Source of the DNA: a virus
Virus record (IMG/VR): IMGVR_UViG_3300040751_004896
Location: 1-28,299 of that record
Strand: one strand, 5' to 3'
DNA: 28,299 nucleotides
In this document: piece after piece, positions 19,624 through 28,299 of the stretch
Numbering within the stretch: position 1 is the stretch's first letter
Layout of the letters: each line of letters begins with the position of its first letter
Notes under the pieces: generated by a model
What the model saw: the letters and a program-made list of their open reading frames with translations, nothing else
The model's database searches: none
What the model was told of the DNA's origin: nothing
Made by a program: the position numbers and the translations under genes

Positions 19624-20565
19624 ATGATTTCTACGAGGGACAGGTTAAAAGTAATAAATGTACTTGATAGTACATTGGGAGTTGGTACATCCTTAAAGGG
19701 TAATGAGCAGGCTCACCATTGTCCTTTTTGTCATCACCACAAGAAGAAGCTTCAAGTAAACTTAGAAACGCAATATTGGCATTGTTGGGTGTGTAACTCT
19801 AAGGGTAGAAGTATTCATTCTCTTCTTAAACGTCTACACGTAGATTATTCCCAATTAAATGTTATTAATGGAATTTATGGTGACCAACCTAAATCTACTA
19901 AACGAGAAGTAGAGGAAAAGATTCAACTTCGATTACCATCTGAATTTAAATCATTATTAACAAAACCCAAATCAATCAATCCAATTTATAATCAGGCAAT
20001 AGGATACCTAAAGAAACGTGGTATTTCAATGGATGAGGTTAGTAAATATAACATTGGATATTGTGAAGATGGTTTATATGGTGGTAGAATAATCATTCCT
20101 TCATATAATGAAGATAACGAACTCAATTATTTTATCGCAAGAACTTTCTATGAAGATGTGGGAATGAAGTATAAGAATCCACCTGTAAGTAGAGATGTAA
20201 TTGTATTTGATAATCAAATTGATTGGAGTGAACCAATTACTTTAGTAGAGGGTGTGTTTGATTCATTTGCAGTTAAGAGAAATGCAATACCCATGTTGAG
20301 TAAGTTTTTATTATCAACACTAAAAACTAAAATTCTCGAGAAGGGTGTAAAGGAAATTAATATACTAATGGATTCAGATGCAGTAGAAGATTCTACTAAA
20401 CATACTGAGTACTTTATTAAGAATGGAATAACGGTCAAAAACATTATACCTCAGGGTGAATCTGATGCAGCAGATATGGGATTTGATAAGGTAAATATAT
20501 TATTAAAAGAAACTGATGAAAGTGGATGGGATGACCTTGTACTTTCTAAATTAAACAACATATGA
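19624..20565 (+). CDS. DNA primase (zinc ribbon plus TOPRIM), T4 gp61/DnaG-like
   Basis: 313 residues (T4 gp61 has 342). It makes RNA primers for lagging-strand synthesis, normally with a replicative helicase. An N-terminal zinc ribbon is clear: Cys33-x2-Cys36 (HCPFCHHH) and Cys54-x2-Cys57 (HCWVC). A basic/helical linker leads to the catalytic part, with GGRIIIPSYNEDNELNYFIA near 155-174. TOPRIM follows: the Glu motif VEGVFDS (Glu209) and the Asp pair MDSDAVED (Asp250, Asp252). No helicase domain is fused. No other in-frame start precedes the zinc ribbon, so ATG 19624 is firm even though it sits almost on the promoter. Its stop overlaps the start of the recombination gene by 4 nt (ATGA), suggesting coupled translation. 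Confidence 0.9.
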   Translation: MISTRDRLKVINVLDSTLGVGTSLKGNEQAHHCPFCHHHKKKLQVNLETQYWHCWVCNSKGRSIHSLLKRLHVDYSQLNVINGIYGDQPKSTKREVEEKIQLRLPSEFKSLLTKPKSINPIYNQAIGYLKKRGISMDEVSKYNIGYCEDGLYGGRIIIPSYNEDNELNYFIARTFYEDVGMKYKNPPVSRDVIVFDNQIDWSEPITLVEGVFDSFAVKRNAIPMLSKFLLSTLKTKILEKGVKEINILMDSDAVEDSTKHTEYFIKNGITVKNIIPQGESDAADMGFDKVNILLKETDESGWDDLVLSKLNNI

Positions 20566-23500
20566 CGGTAGAAAAAATTTACCACTTAGCGGATTTACAT
20601 ATTCGTAACTTAAAAAGACATAAGGAATATCGTTTGGTATTCGAGAAGTTTTTAGAAAATGTTAAGAACGATGGTATTGAAAATTCAATCATCTATTTAG
20701 CAGGTGATATTGCACATGCTAAAACTGAGATGAGTCCCGAATTAGTAAGGGAAATTAGTTGGTTCTTAACTGAATGTTCAAAATTAAAACATACATTCCT
20801 AATCACAGGTAACCACGATTGTAACCTTAATAATGATTATCGATTAGATGTATTAACACCAATCGTAGAAAACTTAAACAATGATAGAATACATTACTTA
20901 CGAGACACTGGGACTTACAACTTTGGTAATATCACTTTTGTGGTTTATTCGATACTCGATAAAAAGGAGAATTGGCCAAAGGCAGAATTGGTAGATGGGG
21001 AGAATAAAATTTGTTTATTCCACGGACCAGTTAATAAAGCACAAACTGATGTAGGATATACAGTATCATCTAACTCATTTACAGTTGAAATGTTCGATGG
21101 GTTTGATATGGTGATGTTGGGTGATATCCATAAACGTCAAACATTTGGTAAAGGATATGAACACGTTGCATATGCAGGTTCAATGATTCAACAAAATCAT
21201 GGAGAACTCCTTGAGAATCATGGTTACTTAGTATGGGATGTAAAATCTCGTACCTTCGAAGAGTTTCATATTCACAACGATTATGGTTACTTAACCGTTG
21301 ATGTGGTCGAGGGGGAGATTCCTCAATGGGTTTATGATGAAGTTGATACCAAACTACCAAAGTATCCACGATTGCGTCTTAGATTTACTCGTACAGAACC
21401 GAGTGATACTAAACGTTGCGTAACTGAACTTAAAAAACTATTCAAGGTTTCAGAAGTAACGGTTACACGAACTGACACTATTGGTCAATTAAAAACTAAT
21501 CAAAGCATAAACAAGAATATTGTTGGTAATGTTAAGGATGAAACGTTTCAAAATCAACTAATTCGTGATTACTTAGAAAGACAGTTCTTATTGGATGGTG
21601 ATGAGTTGGATAAAATTGGTGAAATCAACAAAGAGATAAACTCTCAGGTTGATGATACTAAGGTTGCAGAAAATGTATTATGGGTACCTAAAACATTTGA
21701 GTTCTCTAATATGTTCTCCTATGGTGAGGGTAATAAGATTAGATTTGATAATGCAAAGGGAATAATAGGTATCTTTGCACCCAATGCATCAGGTAAATCT
21801 TCACTCTTCGATGCACTATCGTTTTGTATCTTTGATAAATCATCCCGTACTTTCCTTGCAAAGAACATTATGAATAACCGAAAGGATTGGTTTAAATGTA
21901 AATTCCATTTCCAAATCAACGATGTGGATTACTACATTGAAAGACGAGCAAAGACGGTTAGTAAAGGAAAGAGTGTTAAAGTTGATGTAGATTTCTGGTC
22001 AGAGAGTGGTGGAGTTGTAACTTCTCTTAATGGAGAACAGCGTAGGGATACTAATCACATGATTCAACAATACTTGGGTAGTTATGATGATTTCGTATTA
22101 ACTGCACTATCCTTACAAGGGAACAATGCATTGTTTATCGATAAATCTCAGACAGAGAGAAAGGAAATCTTATCTCAATTTATTGGAGTAGATATTTTTG
22201 ATAAGTTGTATCAAAAGGCAAGTGAGGAATTTAAAGATACTACCACACTTATCAAAAAATTTAAGAGGGATGATTTCACCACCAAACTTGCCGACATCGA
22301 TACTCGATTAGTTGCAAAGAAAAATGAGTATAAGTTAACTACTACTCAATATGATTCTTTAAAGGATGAAGAAGAAACTCTTAATAAACAAATCATCTCA
22401 TTAAACGAGAAGATTATTAAGTTAAATGCAGATAGTGGAAAATCAATCGATGAATTACAATCAACTCTTAACTCGTTAGAAAGTAGAAAAGCTCAAATAA
22501 TTCAAGGAAAGGAAGAAATTCAAACCCGAATTGAAGAAAAGGAGGGAGTTCAAATTAAATTAGAAGATGAGATTGATTCGTATGATGAAGATGATATCAC
22601 CAAAAGATATAACGAATATAATCAACAAAAGCAAGAATTATCTAAACTTAATATTGAATTAGACAAGTTACAAATTCGTAAAGAATCATTAGAGGAGCGA
22701 GTTAAGCACGTAAAATCACATGAATATAATCCTGATTGTGAAATATGTTTAAAAAATTCTGAAGAGTATATTAATGCGAAAATATCGTTACAATCTGAAC
22801 TATCAATAGTAGTTGAGGAAATGTCTGAGTTTGAAAAATCAAAAGATGTAATTGAAGCATCATTAGAAATCAACTCAGAAGTAAACCAACAGTTTACTAA
22901 TTTAAATAATCTTAAAGTACAAGAAGATAAAGTTAGTAGAGAAATTTCAGGACTTATCAACAAGTTATCAACAACCGAAACTCAAGAAATTCGTTTAGAA
23001 GCACAAGTTACGGAACAAACTAAACTAATTGAAGAATATCTAAAGAACGAACAAACCATTGAAAACAATCGTAAAATTCGTGTAGAAATTAGTGGAGTTC
23101 GAGATAAACTATCCATAATTAAGAATGACCTTAAACAGTCAAATACCTTAGTACTTAAACTTAATGGTGAAGTATCTTCACTTCAGAATCAAAAAGAAAC
23201 TATCGAAGAACGAATTAATGAGGTTAAGGAGTTGGAGGAACAACATCGTTTGTTTGAATACTACCTAAACTCATTGGGTAAAGATGGTGTATCTTACGAA
23301 TTGATTTCTAAAGCACTTCCAATGATTGAGGGAGAGGTAAATAACATCTTAACTCAGATTGTAGAATTTGGAATGCAATTAGAGATGGATGGAAAGAATA
23401 TCAATGCATACATCGTATATGATGACCAGAAATGGAGTTTAGAGATGTGTAGTGGTATGGAACGATTTATTAGTGGTCTTGCAATCAGAATTGCTTTAAT

Positions 23501-23720
23501 CAATGTATGTAACCTACCACGTCCTAACTTCTTAGTGGTAGATGAAGGGTTTGGAACATTAGATAATGAGAATCTAACATCATTGTATATGTTGTTTTCA
23601 TATTTAAAAACACAATTCGATTTTGTAATGATTATTTCACACATCGATTCAATGAGAGATGTGGTGGATTCATTACTTGAAGTTAAAAAAGTAAATGGGT
23701 TTTCAAGTATTAAATTATGA
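20562..23720 (+). CDS. 47-46: Fused recombination nuclease-ATPase (gp47-gp46 / Mre11-Rad50 fusion)
   Basis: 1052 residues combining two proteins that are separate in T4 (gp47, 339 aa; gp46, 560 aa). The nuclease half has all phosphoesterase motifs: DLHIR (Asp11, His13), GDIAH (Asp49, His52), GNHD (84-86), FHGP (His154) and GDIHK (Asp188, His190). A linker of about 350-370 joins the ATPase half: Walker A PNASGKSS (Lys412), a long coiled coil with a zinc hook CEIC (Cys726, Cys729), signature SGME (964-967) and Walker B VVDEGFGTLD (Asp994, Glu995). No stop or frameshift interrupts the join. The complex processes DNA ends for recombination-dependent replication and host DNA breakdown. It overlaps the primase gene at its start and the dehydrogenase gene (ATGA) at its end. 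Confidence 0.93.
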   Translation: MTVEKIYHLADLHIRNLKRHKEYRLVFEKFLENVKNDGIENSIIYLAGDIAHAKTEMSPELVREISWFLTECSKLKHTFLITGNHDCNLNNDYRLDVLTPIVENLNNDRIHYLRDTGTYNFGNITFVVYSILDKKENWPKAELVDGENKICLFHGPVNKAQTDVGYTVSSNSFTVEMFDGFDMVMLGDIHKRQTFGKGYEHVAYAGSMIQQNHGELLENHGYLVWDVKSRTFEEFHIHNDYGYLTVDVVEGEIPQWVYDEVDTKLPKYPRLRLRFTRTEPSDTKRCVTELKKLFKVSEVTVTRTDTIGQLKTNQSINKNIVGNVKDETFQNQLIRDYLERQFLLDGDELDKIGEINKEINSQVDDTKVAENVLWVPKTFEFSNMFSYGEGNKIRFDNAKGIIGIFAPNASGKSSLFDALSFCIFDKSSRTFLAKNIMNNRKDWFKCKFHFQINDVDYYIERRAKTVSKGKSVKVDVDFWSESGGVVTSLNGEQRRDTNHMIQQYLGSYDDFVLTALSLQGNNALFIDKSQTERKEILSQFIGVDIFDKLYQKASEEFKDTTTLIKKFKRDDFTTKLADIDTRLVAKKNEYKLTTTQYDSLKDEEETLNKQIISLNEKIIKLNADSGKSIDELQSTLNSLESRKAQIIQGKEEIQTRIEEKEGVQIKLEDEIDSYDEDDITKRYNEYNQQKQELSKLNIELDKLQIRKESLEERVKHVKSHEYNPDCEICLKNSEEYINAKISLQSELSIVVEEMSEFEKSKDVIEASLEINSEVNQQFTNLNNLKVQEDKVSREISGLINKLSTTETQEIRLEAQVTEQTKLIEEYLKNEQTIENNRKIRVEISGVRDKLSIIKNDLKQSNTLVLKLNGEVSSLQNQKETIEERINEVKELEEQHRLFEYYLNSLGKDGVSYELISKALPMIEGEVNNILTQIVEFGMQLEMDGKNINAYIVYDDQKWSLEMCSGMERFISGLAIRIALINVCNLPRPNFLVVDEGFGTLDNENLTSLYMLFSYLKTQFDFVMIISHIDSMRDVVDSLLEVKKVNGFSSIKL

Positions 23721-24535
23721 AAATAGGAATTATAGGACAGGGGTTTGTTGGTAATGCAGTTTATCAAAAGTTTAAAGAACATTATGATGTATTGACTTAC
23801 GATTTGGATGAAACTAAATGTAACTCTACATTTGAAGATGTATCTAAATGTGATTATGTATTTACCTGCTTACCTACTCCTATGAATTCTGATGGAAGTT
23901 GTAATACTAATATTGTAGAAGATGTAATCAAACAAATTGATGAGATTGGTGTAACTAAAGGTATTGTTGTTAAATCAACTATTACACCTGGCACTACTCA
24001 AAGTTGGAATGATACATATAAAACAAACATTGTATTTAATCCAGAGTTCTTAACCGAACGAAATGCGGTAAAGGATTACGAAAATCAGAATAGGATTATA
24101 TTAGGAGGACCAAGACCAACAACAACTTACCTTAAACGAATATTCTCAAATGTATTCCCAAAAGCACATATAGTAAAAACCGATTCAACTCATGCTGAGA
24201 TGGTAAAGTATTTAACAAATACATTCTTAGCAACTAAAGTATCATTCGCTAATGAGATGTATCAGATTTGTGAGAAGCTGAATATAGATTACGATAAGGT
24301 AGTGGAATACTCAACCTTTGATGATAGGTTAGGTAAAACACATTGGAGTGTACCGGGACCCGATGGTGATTTTGGTTATGGGGGGCATTGTTTCCCAAAG
24401 GATGTTAACGCATTGATTTATTTAGCTGATGAGTTGGGATTATATCCAACTATGTTAATGGCTACTAATCGTAAAAATGATGTAGTACGAAAAAATAGGG
24501 ATTGGGAAGCTATGAAAGGTAGAGCAGTTATTTAA
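23717..24535 (+). CDS. ugd: Short UDP-glucose 6-dehydrogenase-like nucleotide-sugar dehydrogenase
   Basis: 272 residues; usual members have about 390-450. The Rossmann NAD site is at the N-terminus (GIIGQGFVG, Gly7/Gly9/Gly12), then TCLPTPMN, KSTITPGTT, and NPEFLTERNAVKDY. The central domain has KYLTNTFLATKVSFANEM (Lys164, Asn168) and the catalytic-thiol segment GYGGHCFPKD (Cys225). The C-terminal UDP-binding domain is absent: only 47 residues follow Cys225. The family oxidises a nucleotide-sugar C6 hydroxyl to a carboxylate, for example UDP-glucose to UDP-glucuronate. All visible catalytic residues are kept, so it may work in a compact form or on a different substrate. It starts in a 4-nt overlap with the recombination gene and precedes a probable glycosyltransferase, which suggests sugar decoration of virion, DNA or host surface. 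Confidence 0.88.
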   Translation: MKIGIIGQGFVGNAVYQKFKEHYDVLTYDLDETKCNSTFEDVSKCDYVFTCLPTPMNSDGSCNTNIVEDVIKQIDEIGVTKGIVVKSTITPGTTQSWNDTYKTNIVFNPEFLTERNAVKDYENQNRIILGGPRPTTTYLKRIFSNVFPKAHIVKTDSTHAEMVKYLTNTFLATKVSFANEMYQICEKLNIDYDKVVEYSTFDDRLGKTHWSVPGPDGDFGYGGHCFPKDVNALIYLADELGLYPTMLMATNRKNDVVRKNRDWEAMKGRAVI

Positions 24536-24562: not shown

Positions 24563-25459
24563 ATGAAAGAAGTAACTGATAGTGGAAATTTAAAAGTATT
24601 GTATCCAAGTTATACATACTTTTTAGATTTACTAAAAGCTAAAAAACAATTTAACTACACACGAATTCAGCATGGTGTATCTGATGTTTTAATAGAATCA
24701 TATTCTGATATAAATGAATTGTTAAAAGATATTCAATCACAGGATTGGTTAAAGATTTCAACACAGGTAGTTCAAGCAAATCATGGAGTATTACAATTTT
24801 GGCATAAAACCAGTAATCCTATTTTAGAAAAGTTTGCAGCATCATATAGAATCATGTATGAGGGTAATTCCTTAATTCCTAATTTACATCTTGGAGTATC
24901 GGCCGGTATCGGATTTGGAAAAAACGGTCATGGTAGTTTACTCGAAACAAATCCGATGCAACAAAACCGTGCTTTAGTAATGCAAACACTAACACAACGA
25001 GTAGATAAAATATATCACGGTGGTATTCCAAGACATATGTCAGTTATGGGTGAAACCTTTGATTTTTTTGATAAATTAAATCAAATGGAATTTGATGTTG
25101 TCATATACGGGCCAATGTATATGAAAGAATATCGTAATATTTTTAAAATTAATAGTTTTCATCATTTACCCATAGCACCTACCGGTGCAATTGGAGAGAT
25201 TGAAAACATATTTCCACAATTAATTGAATATTGTACTAAGTTAAAAAATCCACTAATATTAAATTGTTCGGGACATATAATTTCTCAACTACTGGCATAC
25301 AATTTAAGAAATACTTCTATTTCTAATTTTGATATTGGTATTGGGTTTAATTGGAATATTCGAGAAATTTTAAGGACCAAATATCCTGATGTGAATAATC
25401 CATGGATTCGGAAGAATGAAAATTTTCTAAAAAAATGTATTTTAAATATACGAAAATAA
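24563..25459 (+). CDS. Probable glycosyltransferase, GT-D / DUF1792-like fold
   Basis: 298 residues, no membrane segment. The N-terminus FNYTRIQHGVSDVL (about 30-43) sits where GT-D enzymes carry their substrate-binding R-x-G-D/E segment, but it has HGVSD instead of the usual GDGE-like acidic motif. The second half gives the better match: DVVIYGPMYMKEY (about 178-190), then a helix ending EYCTKLKNPLILNCSGHIIS, and FDIGIGFNWNI, which resembles the family's 'GP..., S-G, DIG' end. Directly upstream is a nucleotide-sugar dehydrogenase, which fits a donor-making and sugar-transferring pair. It ends at 25459, the base before the convergent regulator gene's stop, and a terminator for this strand lies 30 nt further on. 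The assignment is by pattern; a different Rossmann-like enzyme is possible. Confidence 0.45.
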   Translation: MKEVTDSGNLKVLYPSYTYFLDLLKAKKQFNYTRIQHGVSDVLIESYSDINELLKDIQSQDWLKISTQVVQANHGVLQFWHKTSNPILEKFAASYRIMYEGNSLIPNLHLGVSAGIGFGKNGHGSLLETNPMQQNRALVMQTLTQRVDKIYHGGIPRHMSVMGETFDFFDKLNQMEFDVVIYGPMYMKEYRNIFKINSFHHLPIAPTGAIGEIENIFPQLIEYCTKLKNPLILNCSGHIISQLLAYNLRNTSISNFDIGIGFNWNIREILRTKYPDVNNPWIRKNENFLKKCILNIRK

Positions 25460-25630
25460 TTATTTAGTTTTTAAAACATTATTGGGTAGAGGTTTCACAT
25501 TTGATGAAACCTTTTCTTTTATAAGAGATTCTACCAAGCCATTCATTTTATATCCTCTATCCTTACAAAACTCCTTTAATAATTGATGAACTTCTGCATC
25601 AATTTGTAACATTGCGTATTTTTTATTCAT
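25460..25630 (-). CDS. Small ribbon-helix-helix (Arc/MetJ-type) regulator candidate
   Basis: 56 residues read on the minus strand: it starts MNKKYAMLQIDAEVHQLLKE and continues FCKDRGYKMNGLVESLIKEK. This fits the ribbon-helix-helix plan: a short strand (YAMLQID, 5-11), helix A (AEVHQLLKEFCKDRG), a turn, and helix B (NGLVESLIKEKV); the last 15 residues are a flexible tail. Such proteins dimerise through the strand and bind short tandem operators. It is the only clear minus-strand gene in the window. Three 10-bp repeats end at the base before its ATG, and a host-type -7 box (TAAATTTG, minus strand 25677-25670) lies just beyond them. Both fit an autoregulated repressor. It is convergent with the glycosyltransferase gene (adjacent stops) and divergent from the fibre-like gene. 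Confidence 0.8.
   Translation of the reverse strand: MNKKYAMLQIDAEVHQLLKEFCKDRGYKMNGLVESLIKEKVSSNVKPLPNNVLKTK
25490..25520 (+). terminator. Rho-independent terminator inside the convergent regulator gene
   Basis: A perfect 8-bp stem AGGTTTCA (25490-25497) / TGAAACCT (25505-25512) with a 7-nt loop is followed by TTTCTTTT. The T-tract follows only in the + direction, so it should stop transcription coming from the glycosyltransferase gene. The same bases encode residues near the C-terminus of the regulator on the other strand. Confidence 0.8.
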
Positions 25631-25660
25631 TTCTTTAGAACTCTTTAGTTTTCTTTAGAA
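25631..25660. promoter_or_regulatory. Operator-like array: three tandem 10-bp repeats
   Basis: Units are TTCTTTAGAA (25631-25640), CTCTTTAGTT (25641-25650) and TTCTTTAGAA (25651-25660). Units 1 and 3 are identical and each is itself an interrupted palindrome (TTCT-TT-AGAA); the middle one keeps TCTTTAG. The 10-bp period puts all copies on one face of the helix. The array touches the regulator's start codon and lies just downstream of its predicted -7 box. Confidence 0.75.
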
Positions 25661-25669
25661 TAAATATTA

Positions 25670-25705
25670 CAAATTTAAAATCTAATATATTTATGATGGA
25701 ACAAA
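25670..25705 (-). promoter_or_regulatory. Bacteroidota-type promoter for the regulator gene (weaker match)
   Basis: On the minus strand TAAATTTG (25677-25670) matches TAnnTTTG exactly. A TTTG lies upstream (25705-25702) with a 24-nt spacer, longer than the 19-20 nt seen at the other three promoters, so the match is weaker. The predicted start would fall at the edge of the repeat array. Confidence 0.5.
25688..25695 (+). promoter_or_regulatory. Candidate late promoter element, TATTTATG variant
   Basis: TATATTTATG includes a 7/8 match to TATTTATA, 20 nt before the ATG at 25716. It lies inside the regulator's minus-strand promoter, between its -7 and -33 boxes. Confidence 0.4.
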
Positions 25706-25715
25706 GGATTACTAC

Positions 25716-28299
25716 ATGGCAAGAATCAAAAAATTTTCACCGAAAGAAAATCTAACTTCTTTCAATACATTTATTGTAGATACAGGAAATAACTCCGATT
25801 ATTTCAGAATTACAGAATTTAAAGACACCTTTACCGGTGGTAAGAATGGATTCCTTATTGAAGGTTCTCCATACCTTAAAGAATCTACTGAAATCAAAAT
25901 GGAAATTCTTGATGTAGAGGGTAATCCTATATACTTTGAACCAGGTAATGGTATTCCCGAATACTATGAAGGTATATCAAAGTTAATTGCAGTTTATGTT
26001 TATGAAGATACACCAATTGGTAATGCTAAAATATCAATTCTTGGAGAATTAAAGGAATATATAGATGAGACAGGTGTTGTCAGACAAATACCATCTGAAT
26101 GGCAAGGTGTATATAATGTTAAGTGGGAACGAGAATTTAAGGTCAATAGACTTATAGCCAATGAAGATAGAGTTCGTTTTTACAGAAGACCCCAAGTTAA
26201 TATTGATGAAATTGTTAAACCTATTTTTAGCGGTAATCCACCAACAACAACTCAAGTAGGAACTGTCAATGGTCTTCCATTAGTACCAACCGAAAATACC
26301 AATTTATCAAACTTTACGTTACCAACATCATATCGATTAAAGGTAGATAGTGGAAATGGGTGGACTGGTTCCATGCAGAATCAAACGGTTTTATTTGATA
26401 ACCTAAACTACTCACCAAGAATCGATGAGGTAATCAATGAAACCGAAATAGTAGTATCACCACCATATTCTGAAAATAATATTGTAAAATCTTTTAGTGG
26501 TGAAGATTACTCGGTAACGTTTACACATCTTGAAGGGTTTAGTGATTTAGCAACTGCACTAACGGGTTCTTTTGCTAAAATTAAGATTACCGATATGAAA
26601 ACTTTTGTAGGTGATGCTGCAAGAGTTAAGGTATTTAGACGTTCACAATCTCAAATAACTGATTATGAGTTTGTGCAAGAAATTCAATTAGAATCAAATG
26701 AATTATTAAGAGATATTGAAACTCGTCAAAAGACTGAGGAAACTTATGGAATTTTTACTCAAAATATTTTAAATGAGTATTGGGATGTATCCGATTCAGA
26801 GTTAACCACAACCTTTAATCAAGATTTCTTATACAATTCGGTAAAACTAAGTGGTTCAACTGGCCAATACTTTTTTACAACCCAAAGTTTTGATATACAG
26901 GATGGTGTAGAATATACATTAGATTTAAATGTAAGAAAGGAAACAACTAATCCGAATCATTCTCTTAGAGTATTTTTAAGTGGGTCTTATAATGGTAGTG
27001 GAAAATCACAAGATATAGTTTCCATAGATTCTTCTAACTTTATATTACAAAAAACTAATTTTAATGAGAATATAATTGCAGAGAATTTTGATTCTGCTTC
27101 TTTATATATAGAACCAAATGGTAGCGATTGGTACATTAACAATGTTAGTTTAAAAGCATCACAAGAAACTTCATTTTCACCAGATGAAATAACCTTTATT
27201 CAACAGGTGCCAAAAACATTAGAAGCTGAAACATTTGATTATCGTTTTGAGTTTTATGATATTAATAATAATTTTATACCTGTAAATGTAGAAGAATCAA
27301 AAACATTTGTAGGTGGTAATTTAAATCTATTTCAAAAAAGTATTGATGTAACTCCCGATAGTTTGTATTTTGCATTTGATTCTGCATCAAATCCTGCAAA
27401 TCCCCTACCTCCAACTGTAATTAACTTTGATGTAGAAACAAACGTAATCACAGGTTCAATTAACTACACTTCAGGTGCGTTTGATTTTTTTGGAAATGAA
27501 ATACCATCATCTGAATATGTAGGCGGTCAATATCCTGGTCTATTAAGTAATATTGAGGATAGAAGTGGTAGATTTCCATTTCTGACTGTACAAAACTTTA
27601 CAGGTTCACGTGATGATTTAACCGTACAATTTATTCGATATACTGCAGAAGTAGAGGGTGTATCTGATACATTTGTTATTACTCGAGTAGAAGATGGTAA
27701 GGGTGGTGTAAACTTTGAAATAGTTCCTTATCGTGGTACTATTATAAAAAATAAAGAAAGTAAAACACTTGAGGTTCAAGCAATACGAGTTGATGGGATT
27801 AATCGAATTGAATTAAAAGATGGATTAACAAGAAACTTCTCCGATGCGAAATTACATTTAGCATCTGCATCACTTGATGGTGTGAATGAAGTTACTACAT
27901 ATGTATCACTTTCTCAAGCGATAACTAATCCTGATTTTATTACAGGTATTTCGGCTGGTACAACGGGCAGTGGTGAGATAGATTACAATGCAGAGTTTAC
28001 ACGAGATGCAATTGATAATGAGTTGATTGTTTACTTAATGGATGGTCCCACCTCTCAATCAATTTTAACTTCGTTAATTCTCACCGATTTAAAAGATGGT
28101 TTAAATAATGGAGTAGTTACTTCATTGTCAGACCAATTCAATATAAAATACATACCAAGGGAAACCGGTAACTTTAATCCATCATCAAGTCCCGTAACCG
28201 CATCATTCCAACGAAGAGGTACTACATTAAATCCCGTATCTGCAAGTTTGGATATAATTCCATCATCATCCATAGAACCAAAAACAGAAATTCCACATT
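25716..28299 (+). CDS. Very large tail-fibre / virion adhesin-like protein (3' end outside window)
   Basis: The frame opens with ATG 25716 (MARIKKFSPKENLTSFNTFI) and stays open for 861 codons to the right edge. The N-terminal domain (about 1-160) reads YRITEFKDTFTGG-like beta segments, then VYNVKWEREFKVNRLIANED. Around 250-330 a jelly-roll-like stretch appears (SGEDYSVTFTHLEGFSDLAT, then AARVKVFRRSQSQI), and around 370-490 a carbohydrate-binding-like sandwich (QYFFTTQSFDIQDGVEYTLD, then GSDWYINNVSLKA). The rest is a string of Ig-like segments (LEVQAIRVDGINRIELKDGL). There is no coiled coil or enzyme motif in view. Composition, size and late-type promoter suggest a tail fibre or receptor-binding virion protein; the specific role is inferred. 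Confidence 0.75.
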   Translation, partial: MARIKKFSPKENLTSFNTFIVDTGNNSDYFRITEFKDTFTGGKNGFLIEGSPYLKESTEIKMEILDVEGNPIYFEPGNGIPEYYEGISKLIAVYVYEDTPIGNAKISILGELKEYIDETGVVRQIPSEWQGVYNVKWEREFKVNRLIANEDRVRFYRRPQVNIDEIVKPIFSGNPPTTTQVGTVNGLPLVPTENTNLSNFTLPTSYRLKVDSGNGWTGSMQNQTVLFDNLNYSPRIDEVINETEIVVSPPYSENNIVKSFSGEDYSVTFTHLEGFSDLATALTGSFAKIKITDMKTFVGDAARVKVFRRSQSQITDYEFVQEIQLESNELLRDIETRQKTEETYGIFTQNILNEYWDVSDSELTTTFNQDFLYNSVKLSGSTGQYFFTTQSFDIQDGVEYTLDLNVRKETTNPNHSLRVFLSGSYNGSGKSQDIVSIDSSNFILQKTNFNENIIAENFDSASLYIEPNGSDWYINNVSLKASQETSFSPDEITFIQQVPKTLEAETFDYRFEFYDINNNFIPVNVEESKTFVGGNLNLFQKSIDVTPDSLYFAFDSASNPANPLPPTVINFDVETNVITGSINYTSGAFDFFGNEIPSSEYVGGQYPGLLSNIEDRSGRFPFLTVQNFTGSRDDLTVQFIRYTAEVEGVSDTFVITRVEDGKGGVNFEIVPYRGTIIKNKESKTLEVQAIRVDGINRIELKDGLTRNFSDAKLHLASASLDGVNEVTTYVSLSQAITNPDFITGISAGTTGSGEIDYNAEFTRDAIDNELIVYLMDGPTSQSILTSLILTDLKDGLNNGVVTSLSDQFNIKYIPRETGNFNPSSSPVTASFQRRGTTLNPVSASLDIIPSSSIEPKTEIPH

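Follow-up and report, generated by a model that had tools for sequence, protein, structure and literature searches.

The window analyzed here is an IMG/VR virus record of 28,299 bases. Toward its right end, a small gene for a ribbon-helix-helix (RHH) protein and a large gene lie divergently, with a repeat array and two promoter-like octamers in the interval between them:

25460 to 25630, minus strand: RHH (Arc-like) regulator gene, 56 aa, from the ORF call and a PHROG match
25631 to 25640, minus strand: putative operator unit 3, TTCTAAAGAA, its last base directly before the RHH ATG
25641 to 25650, minus strand: putative operator unit 2, AACTAAAGAG
25651 to 25660, minus strand: putative operator unit 1, TTCTAAAGAA, sharing one base with the RHH octamer; near edge predicted at about -40 relative to the large gene
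25660 to 25667, minus strand: late-promoter-like octamer ATATTTAT of the RHH gene, 29 nt before its ATG; directional in a 270-kb relative
25661 to 25686, no strand: spacer between the array and the large-gene octamer, 26 bp, length kept and sequence free
25687 to 25694, plus strand: late-promoter octamer ATATTTAT, 21 nt ahead of the large gene's ATG
25716 to 28299, plus strand: divergent large gene, putative virion protein, at least 861 aa before it leaves the window and more than 1,500 aa in relatives

The RHH gene and its neighborhood

The ORF at 25460 to 25630 starts with ATG and encodes the product MNKKYAMLQIDAEVHQLLKEFCKDRGYKMNGLVESLIKEKVSSNVKPLPNNVLKTK; among the ORFs of 80 aa or more retained for the window, all others lie on the plus strand. 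An earlier note, made from the letters alone, had proposed a small minus-strand RHH gene here, and profile searches agree with it. The protein matched PHROG 3180 (E=1.6e-7) and PHROG 582 (E=8e-4), both annotated as Arc-like repressor, and all 38 of its 38 distinct homologs matched a PHROG Arc-like repressor, the best with an E value of 7.8e-9. Pfam matches were weak and below the gathering cutoffs (RepB-RCR_reg, RHH_4, Omega_Repress, and RHH_5), several of them to RHH families. An AlphaFold monomer of low confidence (pLDDT 60 to 63) has helices at residues 12 to 25 and 29 to 41/45 and an unpaired N terminus, and Foldseek searches with this model gave weak hits, none below E=1, mostly to RHH proteins, among them Arc, VapB, CdbA, TacA, and MatP. 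A PDB sequence search gave only SinR matches, which we judged spurious. By these sequence matches, the protein is related to RHH regulators of the Arc/MetJ/CopG type, and it presumably adopts the strand-helix-helix fold and dimerizes. Residues Y5, M7, and Q9 of the predicted strand are invariant among 38 close homologs and, by analogy with CopG and Arc, are predicted to face the DNA. Neither INPHARED phages nor 84,980 genomes of bacteria and archaea yielded a homolog. The homologs sit in uncultivated viral contigs, some of them 100 to 290 kb long; most relative contigs are partial.

The large protein had no significant family match. The earlier note had called this neighbor large and fiber-like, and its size stands while nothing in the family searches shows a fiber. 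Two distant homologs of the large gene are present in INPHARED, and the divergent RHH gene is absent beside both. To the left of the RHH gene, a single plus-strand ORF of 1,052 aa (20562 to 23720) has a metallophosphoesterase domain at residues 5 to 191 and, from about residue 380 on, an SbcC/Rad50-type AAA domain, apparently a fusion of SbcD and SbcC (T4 gp47 and gp46); an ORF of similar length exists in relatives. It is followed at 23717 to 24535 (plus strand) by a 272-aa UDP-glucose/GDP-mannose dehydrogenase homolog with the N-terminal and central domains only, which in several relatives is oriented convergently to the RHH gene. The cargo genes beside the RHH gene differ between phages: a 298-aa ORF of no recognized family in the window (24563 to 25459), an O-fucosyltransferase-like gene at L101:1887-2954, a GDSL-lipase-like gene at L323:1716-2417, and an unnamed 234-aa ORF at L295:1705-2406. 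Because of this variety, the RHH-adjacent positions are, as far as gene content tells, a local insertion hot spot.

A three-unit array fixed to a late-type octamer

Read on the minus strand from 25660 to 25631, the interval is TTCTAAAGAA AACTAAAGAG TTCTAAAGAA, followed by the ATG of the RHH gene. The three 10-bp units and their core TCTTTAG (on the plus strand), running up to the base before the ATG with units 1 and 3 identical, are thus as the earlier note described them. Exact TTCTAAAGAA occurs twice in the window, both copies in the array. All 47 of the distinct regions upstream of close RHH homologs had the three-unit array, with scores of 18 to 24 out of 24, and 940 shuffles gave a maximum of 17, so the lowest real score was never reached. 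The 10-bp phase was kept in all 47, with the first or third unit sometimes degenerate (forms TWWAGA); the unit consensus is NNCTAAAGAA. Autocorrelation over 41 distinct upstream regions reached 0.61 (lag 10) and 0.53 (lag 20), over a background of 0.31 to 0.41 at the other lags from 4 to 24; shuffles gave no more than 0.41 at lag 10. Across eight divergent loci, array identity was 97%; the figures for third codon positions and the gap-aligned flank were 69% and 73%. On these comparisons, we regard the array as real and selected.

In an exact scan of IMG/VR, the array was found only in contigs with RHH loci, one per contig. Homologs that keep the protein and lose the array, the case named in the earlier note as refuting an operator, were not found in close relatives with the start region covered; two diverged loci, L296 and L305, are the only ones where the units are hard to recognize. 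The RHH gene would accordingly have, as RHH regulators do, a tandem operator (putative) near its own promoter. The array-to-ATG distance, on the other hand, drifts from 0 to 23 nt or spans a whole inserted gene: in L002 to L009, a DUF2452 gene separates the two, leaving the array ahead of the first gene. The location at the start codon is right for the window and does not hold throughout the relatives; what stays fixed is the distance of the array from the large-gene promoter. Immediately after the array, L011 to L018 have a six-codon frame (ATGGTTAGTTTAATACGATAA) that stops 3 nt ahead of the RHH ATG.

The octamer ATATTTAT resembles the T4 late box TATAAATA read as its reverse complement. In the 270-kb relative (L128 to L141), it occurs 26 times in the forward and never in the reverse orientation in 109 codirectional gaps, mostly 20 to 50 nt before an ATG. 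It also lies upstream of the window genes at 2796, 14867, 16784, and 17641. The T4-type octamer TATAAATA was not enriched in orientation toward genes, and reading TATAAATA toward the RHH gene was rejected since such matches are part of the promoter on the other side, that of the large gene. A check of Immutovirus promoters was small, with three octamers. Among the open-access papers searched, we found no report of the ATATTTAT late element or of the RHH module. T4 late promoters consist of a single octamer about one helical turn upstream of the start (PMC2988020). With T4 geometry, the RHH transcript is predicted to start near 25654, inside unit 1, and the large-gene transcript near 25700, relative to which the array would occupy about -40 to -69. 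Across distinct loci, the large-gene octamer lies 6 to 32 nt before its ATG. A second motif, TAnnTTTG, is also directional in the 270-kb relative (25 versus 7). It is the promoter element of Bacteroidota hosts, and homologs of the window are found in Flavobacterium phages; on both grounds, a Bacteroidota host is likely. The ATATTTAT element also offers a handle on the promoters of a large, almost unstudied phage group that probably infects Bacteroidota.

Over 72 distinct loci, the spacer between the array and the large-gene octamer is 26 bp in 62, 25 bp in 6, 27 bp in 3, and 36 bp in 1, the last being L101 with 26+10. Its sequence is nearly randomized (identity of 0.47, versus 0.40 when shuffled), and while the large-gene octamer holds at 26, the RHH octamer shifts relative to the array from -3 to +13. 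In shuffled regions, the best match fell at 26 bp in 38 of 1,800. The loose array rule used for the 72 loci fits 1,526 of the 1,800 shuffles somewhere (71 strong, 38 at 26 bp), so the count over these loci supports the spacing, and the existence of the array rests on the score test in the 47 upstream regions. The fixed length could partly reflect overlapping promoter elements. Rearranged loci bear on the same point. In L101, the O-fucosyltransferase-like gene sits between both promoters, two units stand before the large gene at 26+10 bp, and two others remain with the RHH gene. A different gene is inserted between both promoters in L295, with the array kept on both sides, and in L282 the array stands at 26 bp with another gene upstream and no RHH gene within the 1.7 kb covered. 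The locus had been proposed as a complete switch of gene, operator, and promoter. Candidates for these parts are there, yet the switch is not self-contained, the array being locked 26 bp from the large gene's octamer.

A search for further TTCTTTAGAA targets, as the earlier note had suggested, gave background only. In ten related contigs, TTCTAAAGAA counts were about those of a reversed control, as were two-unit patterns with at most two mismatches. We therefore rejected a genome-wide regulon, and by these counts the array is a single-locus site. Of the 105 octamer matches in the 270-kb relative, just one comes with a strong array, and it is this locus, with a spacing of 26.

Joint change of protein and putative operator

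Operator cores change together with residue 7 of the predicted strand. Where the RHH protein has M at this position, the cores are AAAG/TTAG in 42 of 43 cases; where it has T, they are so in 0 of 20 and nearly all are ATAG. The M-class arrays (the window and L309) carry CTAAAGAA and the T-class array of L310 carries CATAGAA; L305 and L296 fit neither operator class. On a tree of the large gene, the residue class changes five times and the operator class four times. Three to four of the four supported independent pairs are concordant and none is discordant (sign-test p of 0.125 at best), the pairs being too few for significance.

The exchange can be followed in one pair of loci. Starting near the octamer and extending over at least 2.8 kb of the large gene, L309 and L310 share 92 to 99% identity. 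Upstream of the octamer, they differ in RHH class, operator core, and spacer sequence, with the spacer still 26 bp long in both. The break between shared and swapped DNA, around 2370 to 2500 in these loci, lies at the late octamer of the large gene. Since protein and operator are physically linked in one module, their joint change supports binding and does not prove it; the covariation is partly linkage. At least two natural protein-operator classes would provide a natural set for the recognition rules of RHH proteins.

Regulatory readings and known systems

From the observed gene, array, phase, promoter octamers, fixed spacing, and joint class change, we infer the binding, dimer stoichiometry, start sites, and sign of regulation as follows. 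The array sits between two divergent late-type promoters, and RHH dimers would bind it cooperatively, one on each 10-bp unit and all on one side of the helix. With the octamers at about -13 to -6, as in T4, the array would span about -6 to +24 of the RHH promoter, so that bound dimers would occlude it and repress their own gene. Relative to the large-gene promoter, the same dimers would sit at about -40 to -69, a typical place for an activator that touches polymerase. The RHH protein would thereby limit its own synthesis and tune the level or timing of the neighboring late gene. We consider it probable, by a modest measure, that the protein is an autorepressor and a local regulator, possibly an activator, of the divergent late gene. 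Position and fixed distance favor polymerase contact and hence activation, which we slightly favor over repression of the large gene; repression of a contact type is possible.

An array acting on the RHH gene alone, its fixed distance a by-product of a compact intergenic region, would fit the overlap with the RHH promoter octamer, the commonest mode of RHH proteins (autoregulation; PMC5569661), and the 270-kb relative without any other array. It sits poorly with an RHH octamer that moves while the neighbor's stays, and with L101, L295, and L282, which retain the array at the large gene despite an intervening gene or no adjacent RHH gene; we think it unlikely. A repressor of both genes, which when bound would hold back the large gene until late infection, has a precedent in SvtR, which acts on the gp30 tail-fiber gene (PMC5569661), and an array between both promoters would suit it. 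The array, however, stops about 26 bp before the octamer, at about -40, which under T4 geometry falls outside the core promoter, and simple occlusion needs no fixed distance, which makes this reading rather improbable, if a serious one. We give very little credence to a cis element independent of the RHH protein, that is, phased A-tracts (curved or UP-like DNA) boosting the large gene or Shine-Dalgarno-like purine repeats serving the RHH gene. The array is A-rich in 10-bp phase and upstream of a promoter, and the window's last unit occupies the ribosome-binding-site position, but conserved positions include C, T, and G beyond the A runs and the cores vary with RHH class. The Shine-Dalgarno version was rejected on the variable distance to the ATG (up to 23 nt or a whole gene); moreover, in a relative only 23 of 248 ORF starts have AAAGA no more than 18 nt away, and with the expected start inside unit 1, the mRNA would carry just part of that unit.

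A bolder reading has a dedicated RHH activator/autorepressor of one late virion gene that binds at about -40 to -69, always equally far from an octamer-only late promoter, and is exchanged with its operator between phages as a module. We put this forward tentatively, with the chances somewhat against it. Late transcription in T4-type phages is usually regarded as global, and a local regulator on one large virion gene would mean gene-level tuning of late expression.

Among known systems, P22 Arc and its relatives in PHROG 3180 and 582 are likewise small RHH proteins of tailed phages, with short operator sites near their own promoter, and our protein is predicted to have the strand and two helices too. 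The locus here differs in its three direct-repeat 10-bp units beside late-type promoters of a large T4-related phage. RHH repressors that overlap their own start sites are on record, and archaeal viruses provide several RHH regulators: SvtR of SIRV1 acts on a fiber gene, AvtR of AFV6 represses itself and acts both ways on a neighboring gene, and F55 of SSV1 binds tandem repeats, so that both activation and repression have precedents (PMC5569661). Our protein would share with these three the RHH fold and the proposed autoregulation, and differs in belonging to a bacterial phage, with T4-type late octamers, a fixed 26-bp spacing, and an operator code that varies with the protein. The ParR/parC centromere has RHH dimers on 10-bp direct repeats (PMC5016525), as proposed here, but there are only three units in our array and the protein is too short for the extra domain of ParR. 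No motor gene as in ParMRC was recognized in the flanks, where the neighbors are the large gene and the UDP-glucose-dehydrogenase and SbcCD-like genes. With T4 late promoters (PMC2988020), the locus appears to share a single octamer near late genes and no fixed upstream box; it departs from them in its octamer, ATATTTAT rather than TATAAATA, and in the RHH array added at one promoter only.
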